This document shows, one piece after another, positions 6,111 to 22,150 of a stretch of DNA of 64,000 nucleotides. The DNA comes from Burkholderia cepacia (GTDB lineage Bacteria > Pseudomonadota > Gammaproteobacteria > Burkholderiales > Burkholderiaceae). Both the position numbers and the translations under genes were made by a program. Position 1 is the first letter of the stretch, and each line of letters begins with the position of its first letter. The stretch spans positions 62,001 to 126,000 of the forward strand of contig NZ_LDWR01000055.1 of NCBI RefSeq assembly GCF_001039005.1, in the 5' to 3' direction. Under the pieces are notes generated by a model that ran no database searches, was not told where the DNA came from, and saw nothing but the letters and a program-made list of their open reading frames with translations.

Positions 6111-6133
6111 AAACCGCCTTCGGGCGGTTTTTT
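6111..6133 (+). terminator. Intrinsic terminator after the cupin gene
   Basis: AAACCGCC (6111-6118), tetraloop TTCG, GGCGGTTT (6123-6130), then a run of six T. A textbook rho-independent terminator 44 bp after the cupin stop. The following stretch to 6393 holds no supported gene. Confidence 0.85.
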
Positions 6134-6393
6134 CTTGGGTCTTTTCGCGGCGCACGCTGCCGGCTCCGGTAACAACGACCGACTTCAACGCACGAGCGCT
6201 TCATTCGAATTCCGAAGGGTTTCAGTCGTGAAAGCTTCGAAAGCATGCGAGGCGTTTTTGTCAGCTTCGCGTGACGATTTGTTACGCGCTGTCAAAGATC
6301 GTCAATTCGGCGCAAGTGCGTGCACGAGGTGTCGACGACCGGCGTTAAGGAGGTACCAGCCGGATCACCGGCTGCCCTACCCAGGAGAATGTC

Positions 6394-6531
6394 ATGACCC
6401 GCATCGCGAAGATCCTGACCGCGACGGCCGTTGCCTGCGTCGTCCTCGTGCCGACGCTTGCCGAAGCCCATTCGCACCGCGTGTGCCATTACGATCACCA
6501 CCACCATCGCGTGTGCCGCTGGGTGCGGTAA
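6394..6531 (+). CDS. Small secreted His-rich protein (HHHH motif)
   Basis: A 45-residue protein. Residues 1-25 form a signal peptide (MTRIAKILTATAVACVVLV, then PTLAEA). The mature tail of about 20 residues is dominated by His and Cys: SHRVCHYDHHHHRVCRWVR, with two Cys and six His. It follows AGGAGAATGTC, a good ribosome site. Similar tiny exported His-rich proteins are common in Burkholderia. Metal binding in the envelope is a plausible but unproven role. It sits 62 bp before another small secreted protein in the same direction, with both well spaced for one transcript. Confidence 0.72.
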   Translation: MTRIAKILTATAVACVVLVPTLAEAHSHRVCHYDHHHHRVCRWVR

Positions 6532-6593
6532 CCGGGATATCCCTCGGGTACGCCCGAGACGCTTTCACCATTCAGGCAAATCAGGAGAGGACT

Positions 6594-7058
6594 ATGAAAA
6601 AGACGATGTTGATCGCCGCGCTGGTCGCAGGCATGGGTATGTCGCTCGGTGCGTTCGCGCAGGTTCCGGCCAGCGCGCCGGCCGGTACGACCGGTTTGTG
6701 CAAGGACGGTTCGTTCTACTCGGGCGCGTCGAAGAAGGGCGCATGCGCCGGCCACAAGGGCGTGAAGACCTGGTACGGCGCATCGGCTGCTGCAGCCGCC
6801 AGCGCGCCGGCCGCGATGGCGACGGCGGCTTCCGCAGCCGCTGCGTCGGGTGCCGCACCCGCGAAGAGCGCGCCTGCGACGACCGCAGCTGCGGCGCCGG
6901 GCGGCGGTCCGGGCAAGGTGTGGGCTAACGACAGCACGAAGGTCTACCACTGCTCGACCGACAAGTACTACGGCAAGACGAAGCACGGCAGCTACATGTC
7001 GGAAGCGGATGCGAAGGCGAAGGGCTACCACGCATCGCACGGCAAGGCCTGCTCGTAA
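6594..7058 (+). CDS. Secreted DUF3761-type protein
   Basis: A 154-residue exported protein. Signal peptide residues 1-22 end GAFA before QVPAS. The first mature block, GLCKDGSFYSGASKKGAC then AGHKGVKTWYG, is the DUF3761-like Cys/Gly module. A low-complexity Ala/Ser/Pro linker follows (about residues 65-103). A second module, VYHCSTDKYYGKTKHGSYM ending HGKAC, carries two further Cys. It starts at 6594 behind AGGAGAGG. Function unknown; the paired Cys and exported location suggest a disulfide-stabilised envelope or secreted protein. A terminator follows. Confidence 0.8.
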   Translation: MKKTMLIAALVAGMGMSLGAFAQVPASAPAGTTGLCKDGSFYSGASKKGACAGHKGVKTWYGASAAAAASAPAAMATAASAAAASGAAPAKSAPATTAAAAPGGGPGKVWANDSTKVYHCSTDKYYGKTKHGSYMSEADAKAKGYHASHGKACS

Positions 7059-7116
7059 CACGGGCCGGACGCGCGAGGTCCTTTCTTCGCGCGTCGCCTG
7101 AAGGCTGTCGTTTATC

Positions 7117-7149
7117 TCGCCCCGCCATCACGGCGGGGCGATTTTTTTT
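7117..7149. terminator. Intrinsic terminator between convergent genes
   Basis: TCGCCCCGCC (7117-7126) pairs with GGCGGGGCGA (7132-7141) around ATCAC, followed by eight T on the plus strand. It ends transcription of the DUF3761 gene and may also serve the convergent phaZ, whose stop is at 7166. Confidence 0.85.
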
Positions 7150-7165
7150 GCGCCGCTGCACGGGT

Positions 7166-8521
7166 TCAGTGGGCGTGATGCGGTCGTGTTTCGGCCGCTG
7201 CATCGGGCCCGGTTGCGCGCGCATCGAGCAGCGCACGCAGCGTGACATAGTGCGTGCCGTTCGCGTTGCCGTCCGCATCCGCCGTGCGATCGTACGGCTC
7301 GTTGTCGTGGATCGTCGCGCGTACGATCGGATAGATCTGCGTTTCCCAGCGACTGCCGTTGAACACGCCGTAGTGGCCCGCGCCCGTCTGCACGTGGTGG
7401 GTCTTCAGATACGGCGGCAACCCCGAACACAGCTCCTGCGCGGCCACTGTCTGGCCGACCGCGCAGATATCGTCCTTCTCGCCTTCGATCGTCAATAGCG
7501 CGGTGCGATGAATCGCCGCCGGTTCGACGAGCGTGTCGCCGACCGTCAGCTCGCCGCGCGCGAGCGCGTATTGCTGGAAGACCTTCTCGACCGTTTCCAG
7601 ATAGAACTCCGCGGTGAGATCGGCCGTCGCGAAGTATTCGTCGTAGAAGTGCCGCAGCGTGTCTGCCTTCGTCGGGTCGCCTTTCGCGCGCTCGTAATAC
7701 AGGTCGGCGAACGATGCCGCGTGCCGGTCGGGGTTCATCGACATGAACGCGCCCACCTGCACGAAGCCCGGATACACGCACCGCTGCGCCCCGACGAAGC
7801 CCGCCGGCACGACGCTGATCAGGTTTTGCGCGAACCATTCGATCGGCTGGCTCGTGGCGAGCGCGTTGACCTTCGTCGGATTCACGCGGCAGTCGATCGG
7901 GCCAGCCATCAGCGTCAGGCTCGCGGGCTGCGCCGGATCGCCGCCGGCCGCCATCAGTGCGACCGCCGCGAGCGCGGCGACGGTCGGCTGGCAGATCGCG
8001 AGCACATGTGCGTCCGGGCCGATATGGCGGATGAAATCGATCACGTGCACGACGTATTCGTCGAAGCCGAAGCGTCCGGCCGTCAGCGGAATGTCGCGCG
8101 GGTTGTGCCAGTCGGTGATGTACACGTCATGGTCGGCGAGCATCGTGTGCACCGTGCCGCGCAGCAGCGTCGCGAAATGCCCGGACATCGGCGCGACGAT
8201 CAGCACGCGCGGCTGGCGCGCGACCGGGTGCGCCTTGCGGAAATGCAGCAGCGTGGCGAATGGCGTGACCGCCGCGGCTTCCTCGACGATCGGCACCGTT
8301 TCGCCGTCGACGACGATCGACGTGATGCCGAACGGCGGCCTTCGATGCGAGAACGCGCAGCATTCGAGCAGTTCGCACAGCGCGTCGAGCATGCGGCCCG
8401 TCGGGGTCGACGTCGCAGGCGGCCACAGCGACATCGTCGCGCGTGTGGTGGCGGCCCATGCACGCGCCGGGCGCAGGCATTCTGCAGACCATTGGTAAAA
8501 CGGATAGGCAAGCAGATTCAT
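7166..8521 (-). CDS. phaZ: Intracellular polyhydroxyalkanoate depolymerase
   Basis: A 451-residue alpha/beta hydrolase of the intracellular PHB depolymerase family (PhaZ1 type). The nucleophile motif is the Cys variant VLAICQPTVAAL (Cys178), matching the Cys-based triad of Ralstonia PhaZa1. Candidate acid and base are in EGEKDDICAVGQT and GAGHYGVFNG. It also has the family TDWHNPRDIPL block. It mobilises stored polyhydroxybutyrate in the cytoplasm. The start at 8521 (MNLLAYPFYQW) is preceded by GCGAAGG and begins the conserved N-terminus; the longer frame to 8734 lacks family features. It is divergent from the GST gene across 289 bp. Confidence 0.9.
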   Translation of the reverse strand: MNLLAYPFYQWSAECLRPARAWAATTRATMSLWPPATSTPTGRMLDALCELLECCAFSHRRPPFGITSIVVDGETVPIVEEAAAVTPFATLLHFRKAHPVARQPRVLIVAPMSGHFATLLRGTVHTMLADHDVYITDWHNPRDIPLTAGRFGFDEYVVHVIDFIRHIGPDAHVLAICQPTVAALAAVALMAAGGDPAQPASLTLMAGPIDCRVNPTKVNALATSQPIEWFAQNLISVVPAGFVGAQRCVYPGFVQVGAFMSMNPDRHAASFADLYYERAKGDPTKADTLRHFYDEYFATADLTAEFYLETVEKVFQQYALARGELTVGDTLVEPAAIHRTALLTIEGEKDDICAVGQTVAAQELCSGLPPYLKTHHVQTGAGHYGVFNGSRWETQIYPIVRATIHDNEPYDRTADADGNANGTHYVTLRALLDARATGPDAAAETRPHHAH

Positions 8522-8810
8522 GACCTTCGCTCGTTGCGCTGCGTTGCATTGAACGAGGCAAGCCGTGTGCCAGCACGCGGCTGGCACGCGCGTTGCACGC
8601 GGTAAGGGAACGCTGTGGCGCAGGTGGCACGCGACGACGGCTGGCCGGGGGCGATGCATTGCCGTACCGGTTCGGCGCGCGATGCGTGCCGCGACATCGT
8701 GCGGCGCTGCGCCAGTTCGGCGAATCTGCCGCACAGGTGTGGTGCGGGTGACGTCGCGCGGCGTCCGTTATCGGTGCAGGGGTACGAACGGCATTCAGCA
8801 GAGGAGCGAC

Positions 8811-9473
8811 ATGGAATCCACCGGACAGACGACGCTGACCATCAGCAGCCGCAATTACTCGTCGTGGTCGATGCGCGGCTGGCTGCTCGCGAAGCTGAGC
8901 GGGCTCGCATTCGACACGGTCAGCGTGCCGATCGACGCCGCGTCGCGCGCGGAGTTGTTGCTGCTGTCGCCGTCGATTCTCGTGCCGTGCCTGACACACG
9001 ACGGCAACGCGGTGTGGGACACGCTCGCGATCGCCGAATACCTGAACGAAATCCGGCCGCAGGCGCGGCTGCTGCCTGACGATCGGCATGCGCGCGCGCA
9101 TTGCAGGTCGATCTGCGGCGAGATGCATTCCGGGTTCAGCGCATTGCGATCCGCGCTGCCGATGAACCTGCGCGCGCATTTCCCCGGCTTCCGGATCTGG
9201 TCGCGCGCGCAGCACGACATCCAGCGGATCGTGACGATCTGGCACGAGTGCCTGGCCGCGTACGGCGGGCCCTGGCTGTTCGGCGCGGAGATCGGTATCG
9301 CCGACGCGATGTATGCGCCGGTCGTCACGCGCTTCCTGACCTACGACGTGAAGCTCGAACCGGAGATCGCCGAGTACTGCATGCGCGTGCTTGCGCATCC
9401 GTTCGTCGCGGAGTGGATCGACGCGGCGAAGGCGGAGCAGGAAGACATCGACGAACTCGACATGGAGTTCTGA
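8811..9473 (+). CDS. Glutathione S-transferase family protein
   Basis: A 220-residue two-domain GST. The N-terminal thioredoxin-like domain starts LTISSRNYSSWSMRGWLLAK, with a Ser/Trp-rich active-site region, then the cis-Pro segment SILVPCL and the glutathione gamma-Glu contact WDTLAIAEYLNE. The C-terminal helical domain holds GPWLFGAEIGIADAMYAPVV, the N-capping box. The ATG at 8811 follows GAGGAGCGAC. The substrate is not evident. It stands alone between phaZ and the lipoprotein gene. Confidence 0.87.
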   Translation: MESTGQTTLTISSRNYSSWSMRGWLLAKLSGLAFDTVSVPIDAASRAELLLLSPSILVPCLTHDGNAVWDTLAIAEYLNEIRPQARLLPDDRHARAHCRSICGEMHSGFSALRSALPMNLRAHFPGFRIWSRAQHDIQRIVTIWHECLAAYGGPWLFGAEIGIADAMYAPVVTRFLTYDVKLEPEIAEYCMRVLAHPFVAEWIDAAKAEQEDIDELDMEF

Positions 9474-9654
9474 CGCGCCGGATCACGTGCGGCGCGTTCA
9501 ACGATCGGACGAATGGCGTCTGATCATGGGGCGCTTAAATCGGAGGAATCGACGCGCGTCGTGAGGTCTCGTGCGGCGGGCTTCGCGCGCGATCGGGGTA
9601 AACATCGCGGACGCGTTGCCGATAACGCAGGTCCAGTGCCCGCGAGAGAATCAC

Positions 9655-10969: not shown

Positions 10970-11192
10970 GCCGCGCGCGTTCGTGTGCGTTGAAGGCTGG
11001 AAGTAAGGATCGCCGCGGGCGTGGGCGATCCGCCGGACATGCGGTGGTTTGTCGTTTTCCCTGATGCATCGCGTCGTATCCGCCGCGCAAACGTTTCGCT
11101 GCCGATGACGTGTCCGCAGCCCAGGCGATGACGTTAAAGAACCCCCCAGCTCGTGTCGTAAACGGGAGCACGGGGAACGGCGATGATCGCGC

Positions 11193-12488
11193 ATGAAGCG
11201 CGGCGCAGCCGGACAAAAAAGTCAGCGCAGCAGGGGAATCGACTTGAATCGTCAGCAATCGTGGACGCGTACGGCGGCGCCAGGAGAAATCATTTACGCC
11301 GAGGGTTTCGCGGGTGAGCCCGTGATCTTTCTGATCACCGACGGCAAGGTCGAGCTGTCCACGCGATGCGAAGACAAGCGCGTCATCGTCGCGACGCTCG
11401 GCCGTGGCGAGTTCTTCGGGGAATCGGCCTTGCTCGCCGCCGAGCCGCGTGCGCATACCGCGAAGGCGCTTTCATTCTGTCAGCTCACGGTCGTGCCGGC
11501 CGGCATGCTCGACGATGAAATCGAGCGCGTGTCGGCGCTGCTGCGCCATATCGTGCGGACCATGATCCGGCGCGTGAAGCGCAAGGACGACCAGCTCGCG
11601 ACCTATACGCATGCTGACTTCATGCCGGGCGTGCTGTCGTATGCGCATGTGCTCGCGCTGATGGCCGGCGCCGATGTGCGCGAATCCGGCGATTCGTGGG
11701 CACGTCGGCCGATGCAGGCCCATGCGGCCGAGACCTCGGTGCCGCTCGCGGAAGTGATCCGCAAGTGCCGCGCGATTGCCGGCCATTCGCGGCCGCACGT
11801 GCTCGCGATGCTGCGACGCATGGAGAAGCTCAACCTCGTCACGATCGAATCCGCGCAGGCCGACCTGGCCGGCGGTGCATCCGACTATGCGGCTTCATCG
11901 GATGCGCGCCAGGTCGTCACGTTCGATGCCGCGCGCGTGATCGACCGCGCGCAGCAGGTTGCCGATCACGATCTCGACGTGTCGATCAACAGCGAACTCG
12001 AACTCATCGAGCTGGCCGATCTCGAATCGCTGATCGGCGTCGAGAAGACGTTGTTGCTCAACAAGCTGTCCAACGGCGAGATTGCCGAAGAGGTGTTCGC
12101 GTTCCGCAAATCGAAGGTGCTCAGCTACGTCGAGCAAAAGGGCGTCGCATACTTCTCGCGGCGCAACGCGCGTCGCGGCGGCGACGTGCGCGCGCTGGAG
12201 GATCTCGTGTGGGTCGACCAGCGCACGTTGTTCGACGTGATCAGCGGGTTTGATACGTACGATCTCGCGAAGCTGATCGCGAACCTCGACGATCGCGCGG
12301 TGGCCGACAAGCTGTTTTCCGTGATGACCGAGGCGCGGCGGAACGAGGTGTCGTGGGTGATGCGCCGCGAGCTCAAGCTCGATCCGATCGAGATCGAGGA
12401 CATCGTGCGACGTGTGCTGGATGCCGTTCGTGCGGCCAAGGCACCTGCGACGGGCACCATGTCCGTCGCATCGGCATCGGATGCATGA
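11193..12488 (+). CDS. Cyclic-nucleotide-binding (Crp-like) protein fused to a FliG-like C-terminus
   Basis: A 431-residue protein with three parts. Residues about 25-115 are a cNMP-binding beta-roll with a complete phosphate-binding cassette, FFGESALLAAEPRAHTA, whose Gly-Glu and Arg are the ligand contacts in this family. Residues about 180-225 look like a winged helix (PLAEVIRKCRAIAGHSRPHV). Residues about 262-415 resemble the FliG middle and C-terminal domains: LEDLVWVDQRTLFDVISGF, then DTYDLAKLIANL, keeping the Asp pair of the FliG torque helix. Start is uncertain: ATG 11193 has no clear ribosome site, while TTG 11244 has AGGGG seven bases upstream. MotA and MotB homologues follow immediately. 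Crp/FNR regulator is the likely automatic label; the C-terminus and neighbours argue for more. Confidence 0.72.
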   Translation: MKRGAAGQKSQRSRGIDLNRQQSWTRTAAPGEIIYAEGFAGEPVIFLITDGKVELSTRCEDKRVIVATLGRGEFFGESALLAAEPRAHTAKALSFCQLTVVPAGMLDDEIERVSALLRHIVRTMIRRVKRKDDQLATYTHADFMPGVLSYAHVLALMAGADVRESGDSWARRPMQAHAAETSVPLAEVIRKCRAIAGHSRPHVLAMLRRMEKLNLVTIESAQADLAGGASDYAASSDARQVVTFDAARVIDRAQQVADHDLDVSINSELELIELADLESLIGVEKTLLLNKLSNGEIAEEVFAFRKSKVLSYVEQKGVAYFSRRNARRGGDVRALEDLVWVDQRTLFDVISGFDTYDLAKLIANLDDRAVADKLFSVMTEARRNEVSWVMRRELKLDPIEIEDIVRRVLDAVRAAKAPATGTMSVASASDA

Positions 12489-12501
12489 CACGGAGGCGCG
12501 T

Positions 12502-13266
12502 ATGGATCTGTTGACCCTGGCCGGTGTGCTGCTCGGCGGCGCGGCGATCGTGTTCGGTTTTTCGCTGGAAGGCGGGCATTTCTCGATGCTGTTCCAGTTC
12601 GAAGCGCTCGTCATCGTGCTCGGCGGCACGCTCGGCGCGGTGATGATCCAGAACACCTGGGCACGCTTCTTCGATGCGGTGAAGCAGTTGCGGCTCGCGT
12701 TCGTGCGTGCGCGCGAGGTCGATCGCAAGAACCTGTCCGACCTGCTCGAATGGGGCGACCGCGCGAAACTCGACGGGTTGCTCGCGTTCGAATCGATGGA
12801 CGTCAGCGGCATTCATCCGTTCGCGCGCCGCGGGCTCGAGTTGCTGGCCAATGGCGTGTCGACCGCCGTGCTCGAGGATGCGTTGCAGCGCGAACTCGAC
12901 GCGTACGAGCGCAGCCGCCTGGCCGCCGTTCGTGTGTGGCAGCAGGCCGGCGGATATGCGCCGACGTTCGGCATTCTCGGCTCGGTGCTCGGGCTCGTGC
13001 AGGTGACGAGCCATATTCTCGAACCCGCGCAGCTTGGGCCGGGTATTGCGGTCGCGTTCGTCGCGACGCTGTACGGGCTGGCGTTCGCGAACCTCGTGTT
13101 CCTGCCGCTCTACGGCAAGCTGCGCGCGCAGATCGATAGCGAGCTGCGGTTCCGCAAGCTGTATCTCGACGGCTTGCTGGCGATTTCGCGCAAGGAGTCG
13201 CCGCATACGATCGAGACGCGCCTCACCGGCGACGTACGCGGGCGCGCGGCGGAATCGCTCGCGTGA
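12502..13266 (+). CDS. motA: MotA-like stator/proton-channel protein
   Basis: A 254-residue MotA/TolQ/ExbB-family inner-membrane protein of the short PomA/MotC type. Segments: TM1 LTLAGVLLGGAAIVFGFSL, TM2 FEALVIVLGGTLGAVMI, a cytoplasmic domain (about 55-145), TM3 beginning GGYAPTFGILGSVLGLVQ with the conserved channel Pro near residue 150, and TM4 IAVAFVATLYGLAFANLVF. It forms an ion channel with MotB. It starts 13 bp after the cNMP/FliG-like gene. No other flagellar genes are nearby, so this may be a second stator rather than the main flagellar one. Confidence 0.88.
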   Translation: MDLLTLAGVLLGGAAIVFGFSLEGGHFSMLFQFEALVIVLGGTLGAVMIQNTWARFFDAVKQLRLAFVRAREVDRKNLSDLLEWGDRAKLDGLLAFESMDVSGIHPFARRGLELLANGVSTAVLEDALQRELDAYERSRLAAVRVWQQAGGYAPTFGILGSVLGLVQVTSHILEPAQLGPGIAVAFVATLYGLAFANLVFLPLYGKLRAQIDSELRFRKLYLDGLLAISRKESPHTIETRLTGDVRGRAAESLA

Positions 13267-13305
13267 TGGGCTGCGTATGCGGTACGACGAACGGGGATCT
13301 TCGGC

Positions 13306-13965
13306 ATGACAGCCCGAACTGACGGCGCGACCACCGCCGACCGCGACGACGATGAACTCGACGGCGCGCAGTCGGGACGCTGGCTGATTTCGTACGCGGA
13401 TCTCATCACGACGCTGATGGTGCTGTTTCTCGCGCTGTATGTGCTCCAGCTTGCGAAATACAACGCGCTCGACGCGCGATATCAGACGCTTGCGCGGCAC
13501 GCCGGTGGTGCTGCGAGTAGTGCCGTGCCGGAACGCGCACCGGCCTGGCTCGCGTTGCTCGATTCGTTGAAGACCAACGGCCGGATATCGCTGGTGAAAG
13601 CGCCGCACGGTGTCGAGATCGGCATCGACGCGAAGATCCTGTTCAACGTCGGCGATGCGCGCTTGCTGCCCGATGCATCGCCCGTGCTGAACCAGATCGC
13701 GCAGGCACTGAGCGCGCATGCGACGGGCGACATCCTCGTCGAAGGACACACGGACAGCGTGCCGATCGCGAACGCGAAATACGAATCGAACTGGGAGCTT
13801 TCGTCGGCGCGGGCGGGGATCGTCGTGCGCTACCTGACCGAACGCGGCGTGGCGCCGCACCGGCTCGCGGCGATCGGGCGGGCCGATACGCAGCCGCTCG
13901 TGACGGGCGCCGATGCCGCCGCGCGGGCGCGGAATCGGCGCGTGACGATCTTCGTTGCGTACTGA
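13306..13965 (+). CDS. motB: MotB-like stator protein with OmpA peptidoglycan-binding domain
   Basis: A 219-residue protein. A short cytoplasmic N-terminus leads to one TM (about 28-50) containing SYADLITTLMVLFLALYV, where Asp32 aligns with the proton-carrying Asp of MotB. The periplasmic part (about 105-219) is an OmpA/MotB domain: LFNVGDARLLPDASPVL, VEGHTDSVPIAN, then NWELSSARAGIVVRYL and RNRRVTIFV. It anchors the MotA channel to peptidoglycan. It begins 39 bp after motA. The presence of the channel Asp and MotA Pro means the ion path looks intact. Confidence 0.9.
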   Translation: MTARTDGATTADRDDDELDGAQSGRWLISYADLITTLMVLFLALYVLQLAKYNALDARYQTLARHAGGAASSAVPERAPAWLALLDSLKTNGRISLVKAPHGVEIGIDAKILFNVGDARLLPDASPVLNQIAQALSAHATGDILVEGHTDSVPIANAKYESNWELSSARAGIVVRYLTERGVAPHRLAAIGRADTQPLVTGADAAARARNRRVTIFVAY

Positions 13966-14123
13966 TTTGTACTGATCCTGCGCGTATAGGCGGCCGCATA
14001 TGCCCGCCTGTCAACGACATAACGAATCTCGCATGATCGATATCTGAAATCAGCGATGCGCTTCCGCGCGTGCATGCCGATATCCCAAACTGGCTCAGAC
14101 CGAGCGGTTATCGAGGGTTCCCC

Positions 14124-15986
14124 ATGCATTTCTGGCGCAAGCTTTCCATTCAGAACAAGCTGATTCTCAGCATGACGAGTTGCCTGCTCGTGTTCGTCGC
14201 GATTTCGAGCGGACTCAGCATCCGTCTGATCGGCAACGCGGTGCGCGACCGCGTCGTGCGCGAAGAGTTGCCGACGGCAGTGAACGGCATTCGCGCCGAC
14301 GTGCAGCGGCAGATGGCCGGGCCGATCGCCGCGTCGCGTATTCTTGCACGCGATGCGTTCCTGCTGCAGTGGGAAGCCGACGGCGAACCTGATGCCGGCA
14401 CGCGCAACTGGATCCAGCTGGCGAAGAACATCAAGGACGAGCAGAAGGCGGCGTCCGTGCAGTGGGTGTCCGTGAAGAGCGGCAACTACTACAACGAAGC
14501 CGGCCTGCAGCGGAAGGTCACCGACAAGGATCAATGGCTGACCGGCTTCCTGTCGTCCGGCAAGGCGTTCGACGTGAACATGGATCGCGAGGTAACGCTC
14601 GGCGGCTACATGATGTTCATCAACAGCCGTGTCGAAATCGACGGCGTGCCGATCGGCGCCGCCTGCATGAGCCTGTCCGTCGATGCGCTCGCGAAGGGCA
14701 TTGCCGCTTACCGGATCGGCGAGACCGGGTTCGCGTATCTCGTGCGTCCCGACGGCGCGATCATGATGCATCGCGATACGTCGCTGATCGACGGCAAGCA
14801 TTTCATGAAGGACCAGCCGGGCCTGCCGGGCGATGCGTCGTCGACGCTGCTCGCCGGCAAGCCGTATGCGTATCTGAGCTACAACGGCGACGGCGGCGCG
14901 CGCTTCATCGCGACGTCGTTCATTCCGGAGCTGAATGCGTATGTCGTCGTCGAGGTGCCGGAGGCGGAGCTGCTCGGGCCCGTGACGCGCGCGATCCGCA
15001 GCGCGGCGCTGGTCGCGGCGGTGGTGGGCCTCGGTGTCGCATTGCTCGTGATCTGGCTGGTCGGGCGCGCGATTGCCGCGCCGATCCGGCGTGCGGCGAC
15101 GCTGCTGTCGGAGATCGCCAGCGGCCAGGGCGACCTGACGCGCCGCATGACGGTCGAGAGCCAGGACGAGATCGGGCAGTTGTCGGATGCGTTCAACCGT
15201 TTCGTGTCGTCGCTGTCGACGCTGGTTCACCGGATTCGCGCGGCGTCCGCGTCGATCGCGACCGGCTCGGCGCAGATCGCGTCGGGGAATGCGGATCTGA
15301 GCGAACGCACCGAAGGGCAGTCGAGCAACCTGGAGCGCACGGCTTCGTCGATGGAAGAGATTACGGCCGTGGTGCGGAACAACACCGAGACGGCGACGAC
15401 CGCCGCGAAGATGATCAACGGCGCGTCGGATACGGCGGCGCGCGGCGGGCAGGTGGTGGGCGAAGTGGTGAGCACGATGGAGCAGATCAGCAACGCGTCG
15501 CAGCGGATCTCCGAGATCATCGTGATGATCGACAGTATTTCGTTTCAGACGAACATTCTTGCGTTGAATGCGGCGGTGGAAGCGGCGCGAGCGGGGGAGC
15601 AGGGGCGCGGGTTTGCTGTCGTTGCTTCGGAGGTGCGGAATCTGGCGCAGCGTAGCGCGCAGGCGGCGAAGGAGATCAAGGCGCTGATCGAGCACAGCGC
15701 GGGCACGGTGAATACCGGGTCGCGGTTGGTTAGTGAGGCGGGGAAGGTGATGAGTGATGTCGTCTCGCAGGTTCAAGGCGTCAGCGCGATGATGAGCGAG
15801 ATTGCCGAGGCGAGCCTGGAGCAGAGTGCCGGGATCGATCAGATTGGGGATGCGGTGCAGTCTTTGGATCAGATGACGCAGCAGAATGCGGCTTTGGTCG
15901 AAGAAAGCGCGGCAGCGGCGGCGAGTTTGAAACAGCAGGCGGCGGAATTGACAAAACTGGTGTCGGCTTTCAAGGTGGATGAATAA
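14124..15986 (+). CDS. Methyl-accepting chemotaxis protein
   Basis: A 620-residue chemoreceptor. TM1 is about 12-33, followed by a long periplasmic Cache-like sensor (about 35-290; [19 protein letters not shown] is typical), TM2 about 293-314 ([18 protein letters not shown]), a HAMP linker, and the signalling domain with the hairpin tip [20 protein letters not shown] then [18 protein letters not shown]. It would feed a CheA/CheW array. The ATG at 14124 ([14 protein letters not shown]) is the natural start. It follows motB by 158 bp in the same orientation, which links it by position to the stator genes. Ligand unknown. Confidence 0.93.
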
Positions 15987-19243: not shown

Positions 19244-22150
19244 ATGGAAGCGCGCGATAGAATCGACACAAGGCTTGGTGAAACCGTAGTAGTGAAGTCG
19301 CTTGATTTACCTAAAGGCGATGCAGTCTTCCTTTCAATCGATGCTCACGGAACACCCGGTGCTCTGAATCAATACGTGCTGGAATCTTTCGGCCTTGGTC
19401 GAAAAAACCTTCCCACCACCGACGATCTGAGCGACGGATATTTCATAACGCCAGCTGGGCGAGCCCTGCTGTGCTATGTTGTGACGATCGACGGTCAGCC
19501 GCCTGCGCATTTGCTTGAACACAATTTCGAGAAATGTCTGCGAGATAGCCGTCTGCAGTCGCTACGTACATTATGGGTACCTCTGATGGGAACCGGGACT
19601 GCGCGGCTGCCCCTAGTTGAGAGTTTCCAGATCACGCTTAACGTGCTGATCCGGAATGGCTGGACAGACAGGCCAGGCACCTCGATCACGATTTCGACGC
19701 CTGGCCCGGAAGTTGATGATTTTGACGCTCTAACTGCGGCTATCTATGAACTGGTACCCTTGTCGTCGCTCGCTGACGAGGATTCAGAGGCACGGAATAA
19801 ATGGAGCCCTTCACTCGCTGCCCAAGCCGTGCTCTCTGTTGCGCACGCGCTCGGCCGATCCAAGAATGAGCCCGCGCTAACATCTGAGTTGTTGCTATTC
19901 GCGCTTGCGGATGCAAAGCAAACTGATGCCTTTGCGCGTCTCGGTCGCGATCGCTCCGTCGGGGCCTTTGATGCCGCGATTCGAGACCTAGCAGGGGATC
20001 GCTACGAAGCGGCCTGGAAACAACTGTTCGGGAGCCATTGGAGCGCCCCCCAAAAGATCGAGGGTGGTCATTTCGCACGGACCACGAACAACGCTGGCAC
20101 CATACTCGACCGTGCTGCGGAGCGCGCCAGAAGATCGAACCGCAAGCAATTCACTGTCGATGATCTTGTCCGTGCTTTGCTGGAAAGCACTGGCATCTTT
20201 ATCGACTATTTGCGGGTGATGGGTATCGAACAAAATGCACTCCTCGAAGCCTATGAGGATGTGCTGAACGGGCAGGTTCTGATGAGCTTGCACAACGATA
20301 CCGCGTCGATCCAAGATCGACTTGGATATGTTGCCTATGCACATGCGATCGCTTCGTTCCTCGAAAATCCAAGTACCCCTGCACCACTAAGTGTCAGCGT
20401 GCAAGCGCCCTGGGGTACGGGTAAATCATCGCTGATGCAGATGATCCGAGAACGTCTTGATCCGGAGCACGTCCGCGATGCGCATCGCCCCAAGGTCGGG
20501 GAGACAGCTGGTGGAGCGCTCAGTCTCGGCTCGGTTCTGCGGTTTCTTGAGCGAAAGGAGGACATTGGCCCCAATTTTCTGCACGACGCTTATACGAAAG
20601 CCGTACCTCAAAAAGAAGGGGCTGCAACACCACCGGTTCGCCCTAAGGGGCTGTTCACGGTTTGGTTTAATGCGTGGAAGTACGAATCTTGCGAACAGGT
20701 GTGGGCGGGTTTGGTCGATGCGATCGTATCTCAGATCAGCGATCGGCTCCCTGTCGTGCAGCGCGAAGCCTTTCTCCTCAGACTTCATCTTTCTCGAATC
20801 GATGATGGTGTTGTGCGGCGAAAGATTTACGATCGCATACTTACCATTTGGTGGACGAACGTTCGGCGTGCGCTCCTGGTGGGAGTCGGTGCCATCCTCT
20901 CTTTATTCGGCTTAGGGGCTGCTAAAACTGTATTCCCAGACCTCGGCCCACTAGCCACAAGCATCAGCAAAATGGGTTATTGGGGTGGTATTATCGGCCC
21001 GGTTCTTCTCTCGGTTTATCTCGCGTTTCGCTATTGGGCGACTCGCGAGAAAACTCACGAAGAACCAGCTGAACTCAGTTTGGCACCGTACCTTACCATG
21101 CCGGACTATGCCCAATCGGTAGGGGCGATTCATCAGATTCACGCTGACTTGAGACGGGTGCTCGCCGCAGCACCGAAGGAAGGCGTGGACACATTCACAC
21201 CAATCGTAATTTTTATCGATGATCTCGATCGCTGTTCTCCAACTAAAATCGCAAGTGTAGTAGAGGGTGTAAGTATGCTACTGGCGAGTGATACTTACCG
21301 GTGCATGTTCGTGATCGGTATGGATCCGCAGATGGTTGCTGCCGCGCTCGAAAAGGCGCACGAGGAGATCCGCGAGAGGTTGCCTAGTTACGAGCGCGGT
21401 GTGCCGCTCGGTTGGCGTTTCATGGACAAGTTCGTCCAATTGCCATTTACGATCCCACCTCAGGCAAATCTCAATGAATATCTTAAATCGCTGGGTGCGG
21501 CGACGAGCTTCGTGTCCGTCGCCCCTACAGCCTCGTCCGTCGCCCTCTCGACGATTGACGACCAGCGTCCGCTTGAGGATGCCACCAATAAGCCTGGTGA
21601 GTTTGCGGATTCTGGCGAAGGTGATACACATCAGTCTGATCGAGAGGCAACTGCCGATCCGTCGAACGACAGTAGGGACGTCGGGCGCATCGTTCGCGAA
21701 CTTGGACGCTATAGCGCGGGTAATCCCCGCGAGATTAAGCGCATGGTCAATCTGGCACGTCTCTACTTGGCTTTGCGTAACGAGCGGCGGCGTGTCGATC
21801 CCTTCTGGCGTGCCCCTTCGCTCGAACAGTATGCACGTTGGATCGCGCTCACGCTTCGCTGGCCCGACATGATGCGGTGGTTGCAATGGGGAGCAGACGA
21901 AGCGGTTTGGTCGGTTGAGGACAACAGTACCGCTCTCATTGTCCGCCGGCTTAAGGTACTTGAGGCCGCAGCAAGCGAAACTCATACTGTTGCTGGCTGG
22001 GCGGAATTGATTGAAGGTGAACTCCTTCTGGACAAGAACGATGCAGTCGAATGGCGCAAGGATCCGAAGCTGTTCGAGTTGTTTCGGAATTGCAGTCAAT
22101 CGCCGCCGGGGCGCAGACTTTCAGCAGCCGCTGAAATTGGTTTTTGGTAA
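19244..22150 (+). CDS. Macro-like / Clp-N-like / KAP-family P-loop NTPase
   Basis: A 968-residue protein. Residues about 1-160 look like a macro-type fold (GDAVFLSIDAHGTPGALN, LRTLWVPLMGTGTARLPLVE). About 185-340 resembles a double Clp-N repeat (AAERARRSNRKQFTVDDLV, ALLESTGIF). From about 345 a KAP NTPase begins: Walker A APWGTGKSS (387-395), FNAWKYESCEQVWAGLV, two transmembrane segments inside the NTPase (about 541-560 and 578-597), Walker B IVIFIDDLDRC (about 653-663), VIGMDPQMVAAAL, and the sensor-like GNPREIKRMVNLAR near 820. KAP NTPases are membrane-associated and occur in plasmid and phage-defence settings. This domain order is not one I can name. A nuclease-like gene follows 213 bp later. 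Confidence 0.82.
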   Translation: MEARDRIDTRLGETVVVKSLDLPKGDAVFLSIDAHGTPGALNQYVLESFGLGRKNLPTTDDLSDGYFITPAGRALLCYVVTIDGQPPAHLLEHNFEKCLRDSRLQSLRTLWVPLMGTGTARLPLVESFQITLNVLIRNGWTDRPGTSITISTPGPEVDDFDALTAAIYELVPLSSLADEDSEARNKWSPSLAAQAVLSVAHALGRSKNEPALTSELLLFALADAKQTDAFARLGRDRSVGAFDAAIRDLAGDRYEAAWKQLFGSHWSAPQKIEGGHFARTTNNAGTILDRAAERARRSNRKQFTVDDLVRALLESTGIFIDYLRVMGIEQNALLEAYEDVLNGQVLMSLHNDTASIQDRLGYVAYAHAIASFLENPSTPAPLSVSVQAPWGTGKSSLMQMIRERLDPEHVRDAHRPKVGETAGGALSLGSVLRFLERKEDIGPNFLHDAYTKAVPQKEGAATPPVRPKGLFTVWFNAWKYESCEQVWAGLVDAIVSQISDRLPVVQREAFLLRLHLSRIDDGVVRRKIYDRILTIWWTNVRRALLVGVGAILSLFGLGAAKTVFPDLGPLATSISKMGYWGGIIGPVLLSVYLAFRYWATREKTHEEPAELSLAPYLTMPDYAQSVGAIHQIHADLRRVLAAAPKEGVDTFTPIVIFIDDLDRCSPTKIASVVEGVSMLLASDTYRCMFVIGMDPQMVAAALEKAHEEIRERLPSYERGVPLGWRFMDKFVQLPFTIPPQANLNEYLKSLGAATSFVSVAPTASSVALSTIDDQRPLEDATNKPGEFADSGEGDTHQSDREATADPSNDSRDVGRIVRELGRYSAGNPREIKRMVNLARLYLALRNERRRVDPFWRAPSLEQYARWIALTLRWPDMMRWLQWGADEAVWSVEDNSTALIVRRLKVLEAAASETHTVAGWAELIEGELLLDKNDAVEWRKDPKLFELFRNCSQSPPGRRLSAAAEIGFW

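Follow-up and report, generated by a model that had tools for sequence, protein, structure and literature searches.

YcgR, MotI and FlgZ are PilZ proteins that sense cyclic di-GMP (c-di-GMP) and are second-messenger effectors of the stator. PMC12713396 describes the C-terminal helix of YcgR as binding those MotA residues that contact the torque helix of FliG. A like effect, that of a second messenger acting on the stator-rotor contact, may be expected of a three-gene unit in a 64,000-nucleotide stretch of Burkholderia cepacia (contig NZ_LDWR01000055.1; this whole stretch is called the window below), in which a gene fusing a CRP-like cyclic-nucleotide sensor to a FliG C-terminal domain is followed by motA and motB. 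YcgR would be the closest precedent in effect, but its parts are unrelated: the sensor of the fusion is of the CRP type and its head of the FliG type, and no PilZ domain was matched in the fusion by Pfam at E values up to 1. No earlier description of such a fusion was among the records listed in searches of an open-access library.

In the reading preferred here, to which about an even chance is given, the three genes equip the ordinary flagellum with an accessory stator under second-messenger control. The CRP-like domain would bind a cyclic mononucleotide, probably cyclic AMP (cAMP), and the FliG C-terminal head would dock on the MotA ring, at the binding place of FliG, of a MotC/MotD-type stator dedicated to the module. 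Because the torque charges are missing from the head, it would hold or release the stator instead of being pushed. Ligand binding would switch the docking, such that stators are either kept back or passed on to the true FliG ring, and this switch would set the number of accessory stators reaching the flagellar motor. The idea of a dedicated stator gated by a second messenger was already put forward in the original prediction, made from the letters of the window, and is retained as the likeliest. The choice of bacteria between stator sets and the sensing of surfaces through the motor are open questions, on which a conserved unit of a stator and a rotor-domain-bearing sensor offers a direct genetic handle. 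If the reading is true, part of a rotor has taken on a second use as a docking head for regulation, and signals of the cAMP type, not c-di-GMP, are tied to the stator-rotor contact.

The fusion shares with the CRP/FNR regulators (GlxR, Clr, MtbCRP, Bd2879) a cyclic-nucleotide domain, followed in the same order by a predicted long helix and winged helix, but has two additional C-terminal domains and adjoins a stator pair. With the FliG C-terminal domain (PF01706; 3ajc, 1qc7, 8ucs) its head has the fold and the hydrophobic register in common, whereas the identity is ~17%, the five torque charges are replaced, the N and M domains are absent, and a CRP-like part is attached. The stator resembles the MotCD accessory stator of Pseudomonas and relatives in that the window MotA lies above the cut-off of NF006583; in contrast to MotCD, it is outside any flagellar cluster seen and is tied to the fusion, and its MotB is under the MotD cut-off.

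All genes of the locus are on the + strand. Rechecking showed the coordinates, frames and gene order given earlier to be correct, as is the gap of 13 base pairs (bp) between the stop codon of the fusion and the motA ATG at 12502. The start of the fusion, previously placed at ATG 11193, is more probably TTG 11244, because in an alignment of 24 upstream regions, picked out of 96, this position holds a TTG/GTG codon preceded by an AGGGG ribosome site; in the window the ribosome site is AGGGGA (11232..11237, +), six bases 5' of the TTG. The gene would then span 11244..12488 and encode 414 amino acids (431 from ATG 11193). The residue numbers used here start at ATG 11193. The genome containing the window (8.84 Mb in 188 contigs) is of the Burkholderia kind, and the nearest named loci, at ~95% and lower, are all from Burkholderia.

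The cyclic-nucleotide-binding domain occupies residues 26-111 (11268..11525, +; Pfam cNMP_binding, 1e-16). The phosphate-binding cassette (FGE...EPR.HT) is intact, as had been claimed, and its pocket is conserved across 51 members of the family: FGE, including E77, is found in 51/51, T89 in 51/51, and R86 in 50/51, with one K. The cassette Arg is absent from the more distant locus L040, which is outside the 51. At the position following this Arg, 22 of the 51 have A, 13 have P, 10 have G, 4 have S, and one each has V and T. In PKA and PKG the residue at this place separates a preference for cAMP from one for cyclic GMP, and by this rule the family leans toward cAMP as the ligand. A search of the genome for class III cyclases, the only class searched, gave one marginal match (22.8 bits; cut-off 21.9).

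The earlier two-part description, a sensor with a FliG-like end, holds for these two parts and leaves unmentioned a predicted winged-helix domain between them. Residues 112-220 (11526..11852, +) resemble the long helix and winged helix-turn-helix of CRP/MarR (predicted fold; MarR_2 matched in 4/51 members), and approximately residues 139-267 fold-match CRP/MarR regulators, the confidence of the model being low to middling there. H198, S199, R200 and R209 are invariant in this region (51/51), and the fusion may bind DNA. The middle domain that follows (residues 238-330; 11904..12182, +) is conserved to the same degree as the known domains (mean 0.82 per column). No clear family was found for it, profile matches being weak and model confidence low. 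Of 36 C-terminal parts, 33 match AbiEi (PADLOC PDLC02255; best 1.4e-7). The match, at residues 296-377 in the window protein, overlaps the middle domain and competes at the sequence level with the FliG reading. An AbiEi identity for the C-terminal part was set aside; no AbiEi model appeared in the Pfam search, and no AbiEi structure is among the listed fold matches, an absence that by itself excludes nothing.

The head (residues 333-419; 12189..12449, +) has the FliG C-terminal fold. In the window protein the FliG_C profile gives 4.7e-4 and 20.8 bits, below the cut-off of 23.3; with an E threshold of 0.1, 48 of the 51 members match it, the best at 2.5e-6. The predicted fold fits FliG_C over 86 residues at 1.6 Å, with fusion residues 333-419 aligned onto residues 234-319 of Salmonella FliG, and the hydrophobic patterns of the two are in the same register, the best among 762 placements. 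The proposed relation of the C-terminus to FliG is thus upheld by profile and predicted fold; MgtE_N, named earlier as an alternative, matched only 3/51 members (best 0.017), and both Pfam and the fold favour FliG_C. FliG_N and FliG_M were matched neither in the window fusion nor in the 51 members, and the CRP-like part stands in their place. The residues K264, R281, D288, D289 and R297, which we take to be the torque-helix charges of E. coli FliG, correspond to A363, A381, W388, V389 and D397, with 0/5 kept, in a register that was taken from Pfam with one gap placed by eye and that is consistent with where the structural alignment begins and ends. W388 and D397 are present in 51/51 fusions, while FliGs of the same order have K, R, D/E, D and R/K at the torque positions in 31/31. 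Charges elsewhere in the head, for example R391, R392 and E400, are invariant. The head therefore looks like a binding copy.

The stator is encoded by motA (12502..13266, +; Pfam MotA_ExbB, 2.1e-24) and by a MotD-like motB (13306..13965, +; Pfam MotB_plug, 2.2e-9, and OmpA, 1.7e-19). Both the channel Pro of MotA and Asp32 of MotB, noted before, are confirmed and conserved across 19 sequences: P154 and P202 are kept in 19/19, and Asp32 is invariant. MotB also has a plug helix and an OmpA peptidoglycan-binding domain. K89 (19/19) and E97 (18/19) are, in an alignment by eye, at the positions of R90 and E98, presumably the rotor-facing residues of MotA. With K89, E97 and both channel prolines kept, the stator seems capable of turning a true FliG ring. 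The window MotA scores 248.8 bits against NF006583, which we take to be the MotC model (cut-off 237), and three relatives score 254.6, 239.5 and 241.6; MotB is below the MotD equivalog cut-off (163.9 vs 283). In 23 of 29 outside relatives (37-44% identity), motA is preceded by cheB (19) or fliA (4), and in the others by a CheA/CheW-like gene (2) or a gene left unresolved (4); these genes were read by eye, with one cheB and one fliA confirmed by profile. The relatives of the stator are flagellar. A Zorya defence system is unlikely, as MotA gave no PADLOC match, to ZorA or any other model, at 0.01; MotB has ZorB matches (best 8.8e-23), which any relative of MotB would be expected to give.

The fusion is found in 47 of the 61 genomes of the genus (counted at E below 1e-150), in 58/249 genomes of the family (5/25 sampled genera; the 58 include the divergent G541), and in 2/398 genomes across the phylum, both from the same genus as the window. 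A collection of the genomes of 84,980 species yielded 90 relatives, of which 80 were kept, all from Burkholderia, Paraburkholderia or Trinickia by title; distant members may have been missed because the scan patterns are specific. Large replicons of Caballeronia also carry the fusion (2/8 plasmid records), and phages gave no match. In the main family, motA and motB are 3' of the fusion on the same strand in 92/92 loci (L040-L131), which were selected for holding the fusion and of which at least five represent one place fetched twice. The expected conserved linkage to motAB is thus found; an additional reading frame is present between motA and motB in L122, and the genes flanking the three-gene unit differ between clades. 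In all 14 genomes of the genus without the fusion, the best match to the window MotA is 2.3e-8 or weaker. Therefore, stator and fusion are gained and lost jointly within the genus. The distances of fusion and stator correlate (0.76 and 0.87), a result that includes no outgroup gene for comparison and is not used as support.

Upstream of the gene is a sigma28-like element, TAAAG...GTCGTAAAC (11135..11163, +), with the spacing of the E. coli consensus plus one base. According to PMC2859248, this consensus is TAAAGTTT-n11-GCCGATAA, and the sigma28 promoter of aer is activated by CRP. The latter may serve, by analogy, as a precedent for the coupling of cAMP with late flagellar genes. A similar element is found ~60 bp before residue 1 in 59/96 upstream regions, with a spacing from TAAAG to a GTCGTTAT-like box of 15 in 19 and of 16 in 40, a count made without shuffle control on regions that include duplicates. 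Scanned genome-wide, the strict sigma28 pattern had 1 match (control 2) and a looser one 6 (control 23), which is no enrichment, and the element of the window matches neither pattern. Sigma28 control of the operon is therefore only probable. The strict match is 29 bp 5' of flgM (gene read by eye), another element is 45 bp 5' of a GGDEF-EAL gene (L192, G000 C131:38661), and the remaining four looser matches have no telling gene downstream. The flgM and GGDEF-EAL matches are suggestive of a sigma28 regulon and, because such an element precedes the GGDEF-EAL gene, c-di-GMP turnover in this genome may belong to the late flagellar regulon. Farther upstream is a palindrome-like box, GCAAACGTTTCG (11087..11098, strand not applicable), a candidate regulator site. 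In relatives it reads GCAAACG[T/A]TTGC or a near form, ~100 bp or more upstream in 23/96 regions (not found in 73/96), and it is presumably of the LacI/PurR-like kind.

Some points weigh against the accessory stator as proposed. In locus L174 (G541, of another genus) a divergent fusion (8429-9583, - strand) has no FliG_C profile match and no motAB adjoining it, and the genome lacks a close relative of the window MotA. A sigma28-like element precedes this fusion. The predicted winged helix, which is conserved, would be superfluous for a pure stator clutch. Finally, with its torque charges lost, the head may no longer bind MotA at all.

The rival that survives best, although unlikely, is that the fusion binds DNA as a member of the CRP family and is caught by its FliG-like head on free MotA rings, so that recruitment of stators under load or at a surface frees the protein, or the reverse, and alters transcription together with the cyclic nucleotide. 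The CRP order of cyclic-nucleotide domain and predicted long helix and winged helix, the CRP/MarR fold matches, the invariant H198-S199-R200, the palindrome or near palindrome upstream in 23/96 regions and the persistence of the fusion without motAB in L174 all point this way. Against it, the palindrome is presumably of the LacI/PurR-like kind and was not found in 73/96 regions, and the model of the winged-helix part is of low to middling confidence. With slightly more reserve, it may be supposed that a CRP-type protein senses the engagement of accessory stators through a domesticated rotor domain, and thereby unites motor load, cyclic nucleotide and expression in one molecule.

It is improbable that the fusion is an adaptor carrying the cyclic-nucleotide signal to the true motor by way of its FliM or FliG neighbours, not MotA, with motAB merely co-transcribed. 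FliG_C in the C ring also packs against neighbouring FliG and FliM, and in one genome motB is immediately followed by an additional, complete FliG gene; however, the pairing with this one stator type is better explained by contact with that stator. That the fusion takes the place of FliG in the C ring or sits there beside it, or is the rotor of a separate MotAB-driven device as the original prediction also allowed for a small non-flagellar one, is very improbable in spite of its FliG_C fold beside a stator with intact channel residues, because the N and M domains are lacking, none of the five torque charges is kept, the stator is MotC-type with flagellar relatives, a sigma28-like element is present, an ordinary FliG is encoded elsewhere in the genome, and no ring, rod or export gene is among the ten window proteins scanned.

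The chemoreceptor gene after motB (14070..15986, +; dCache-like, HAMP and MCP signal domains; Pfam MCPsignal, 3.9e-52) had been counted with the operon. It is a lineage-specific, non-core neighbour, and a similar receptor is inside the fetched stretch in 41/95 loci, in some species only. At L041 (G055), a complete three-domain FliG gene (6132-7160, - strand) directly follows fusion, motA and motB and precedes a chemoreceptor. It is the only FliG in the 95 loci, G055 holds another FliG elsewhere, and among the ten reading frames scanned at L041 there is no flagellar gene besides these and motA and motB. This FliG and the adjoining stator may be a natural rotor-stator pairing. Elsewhere in the window (19244-22150), a large KAP-type P-loop ATPase matches QatA and other defence models.
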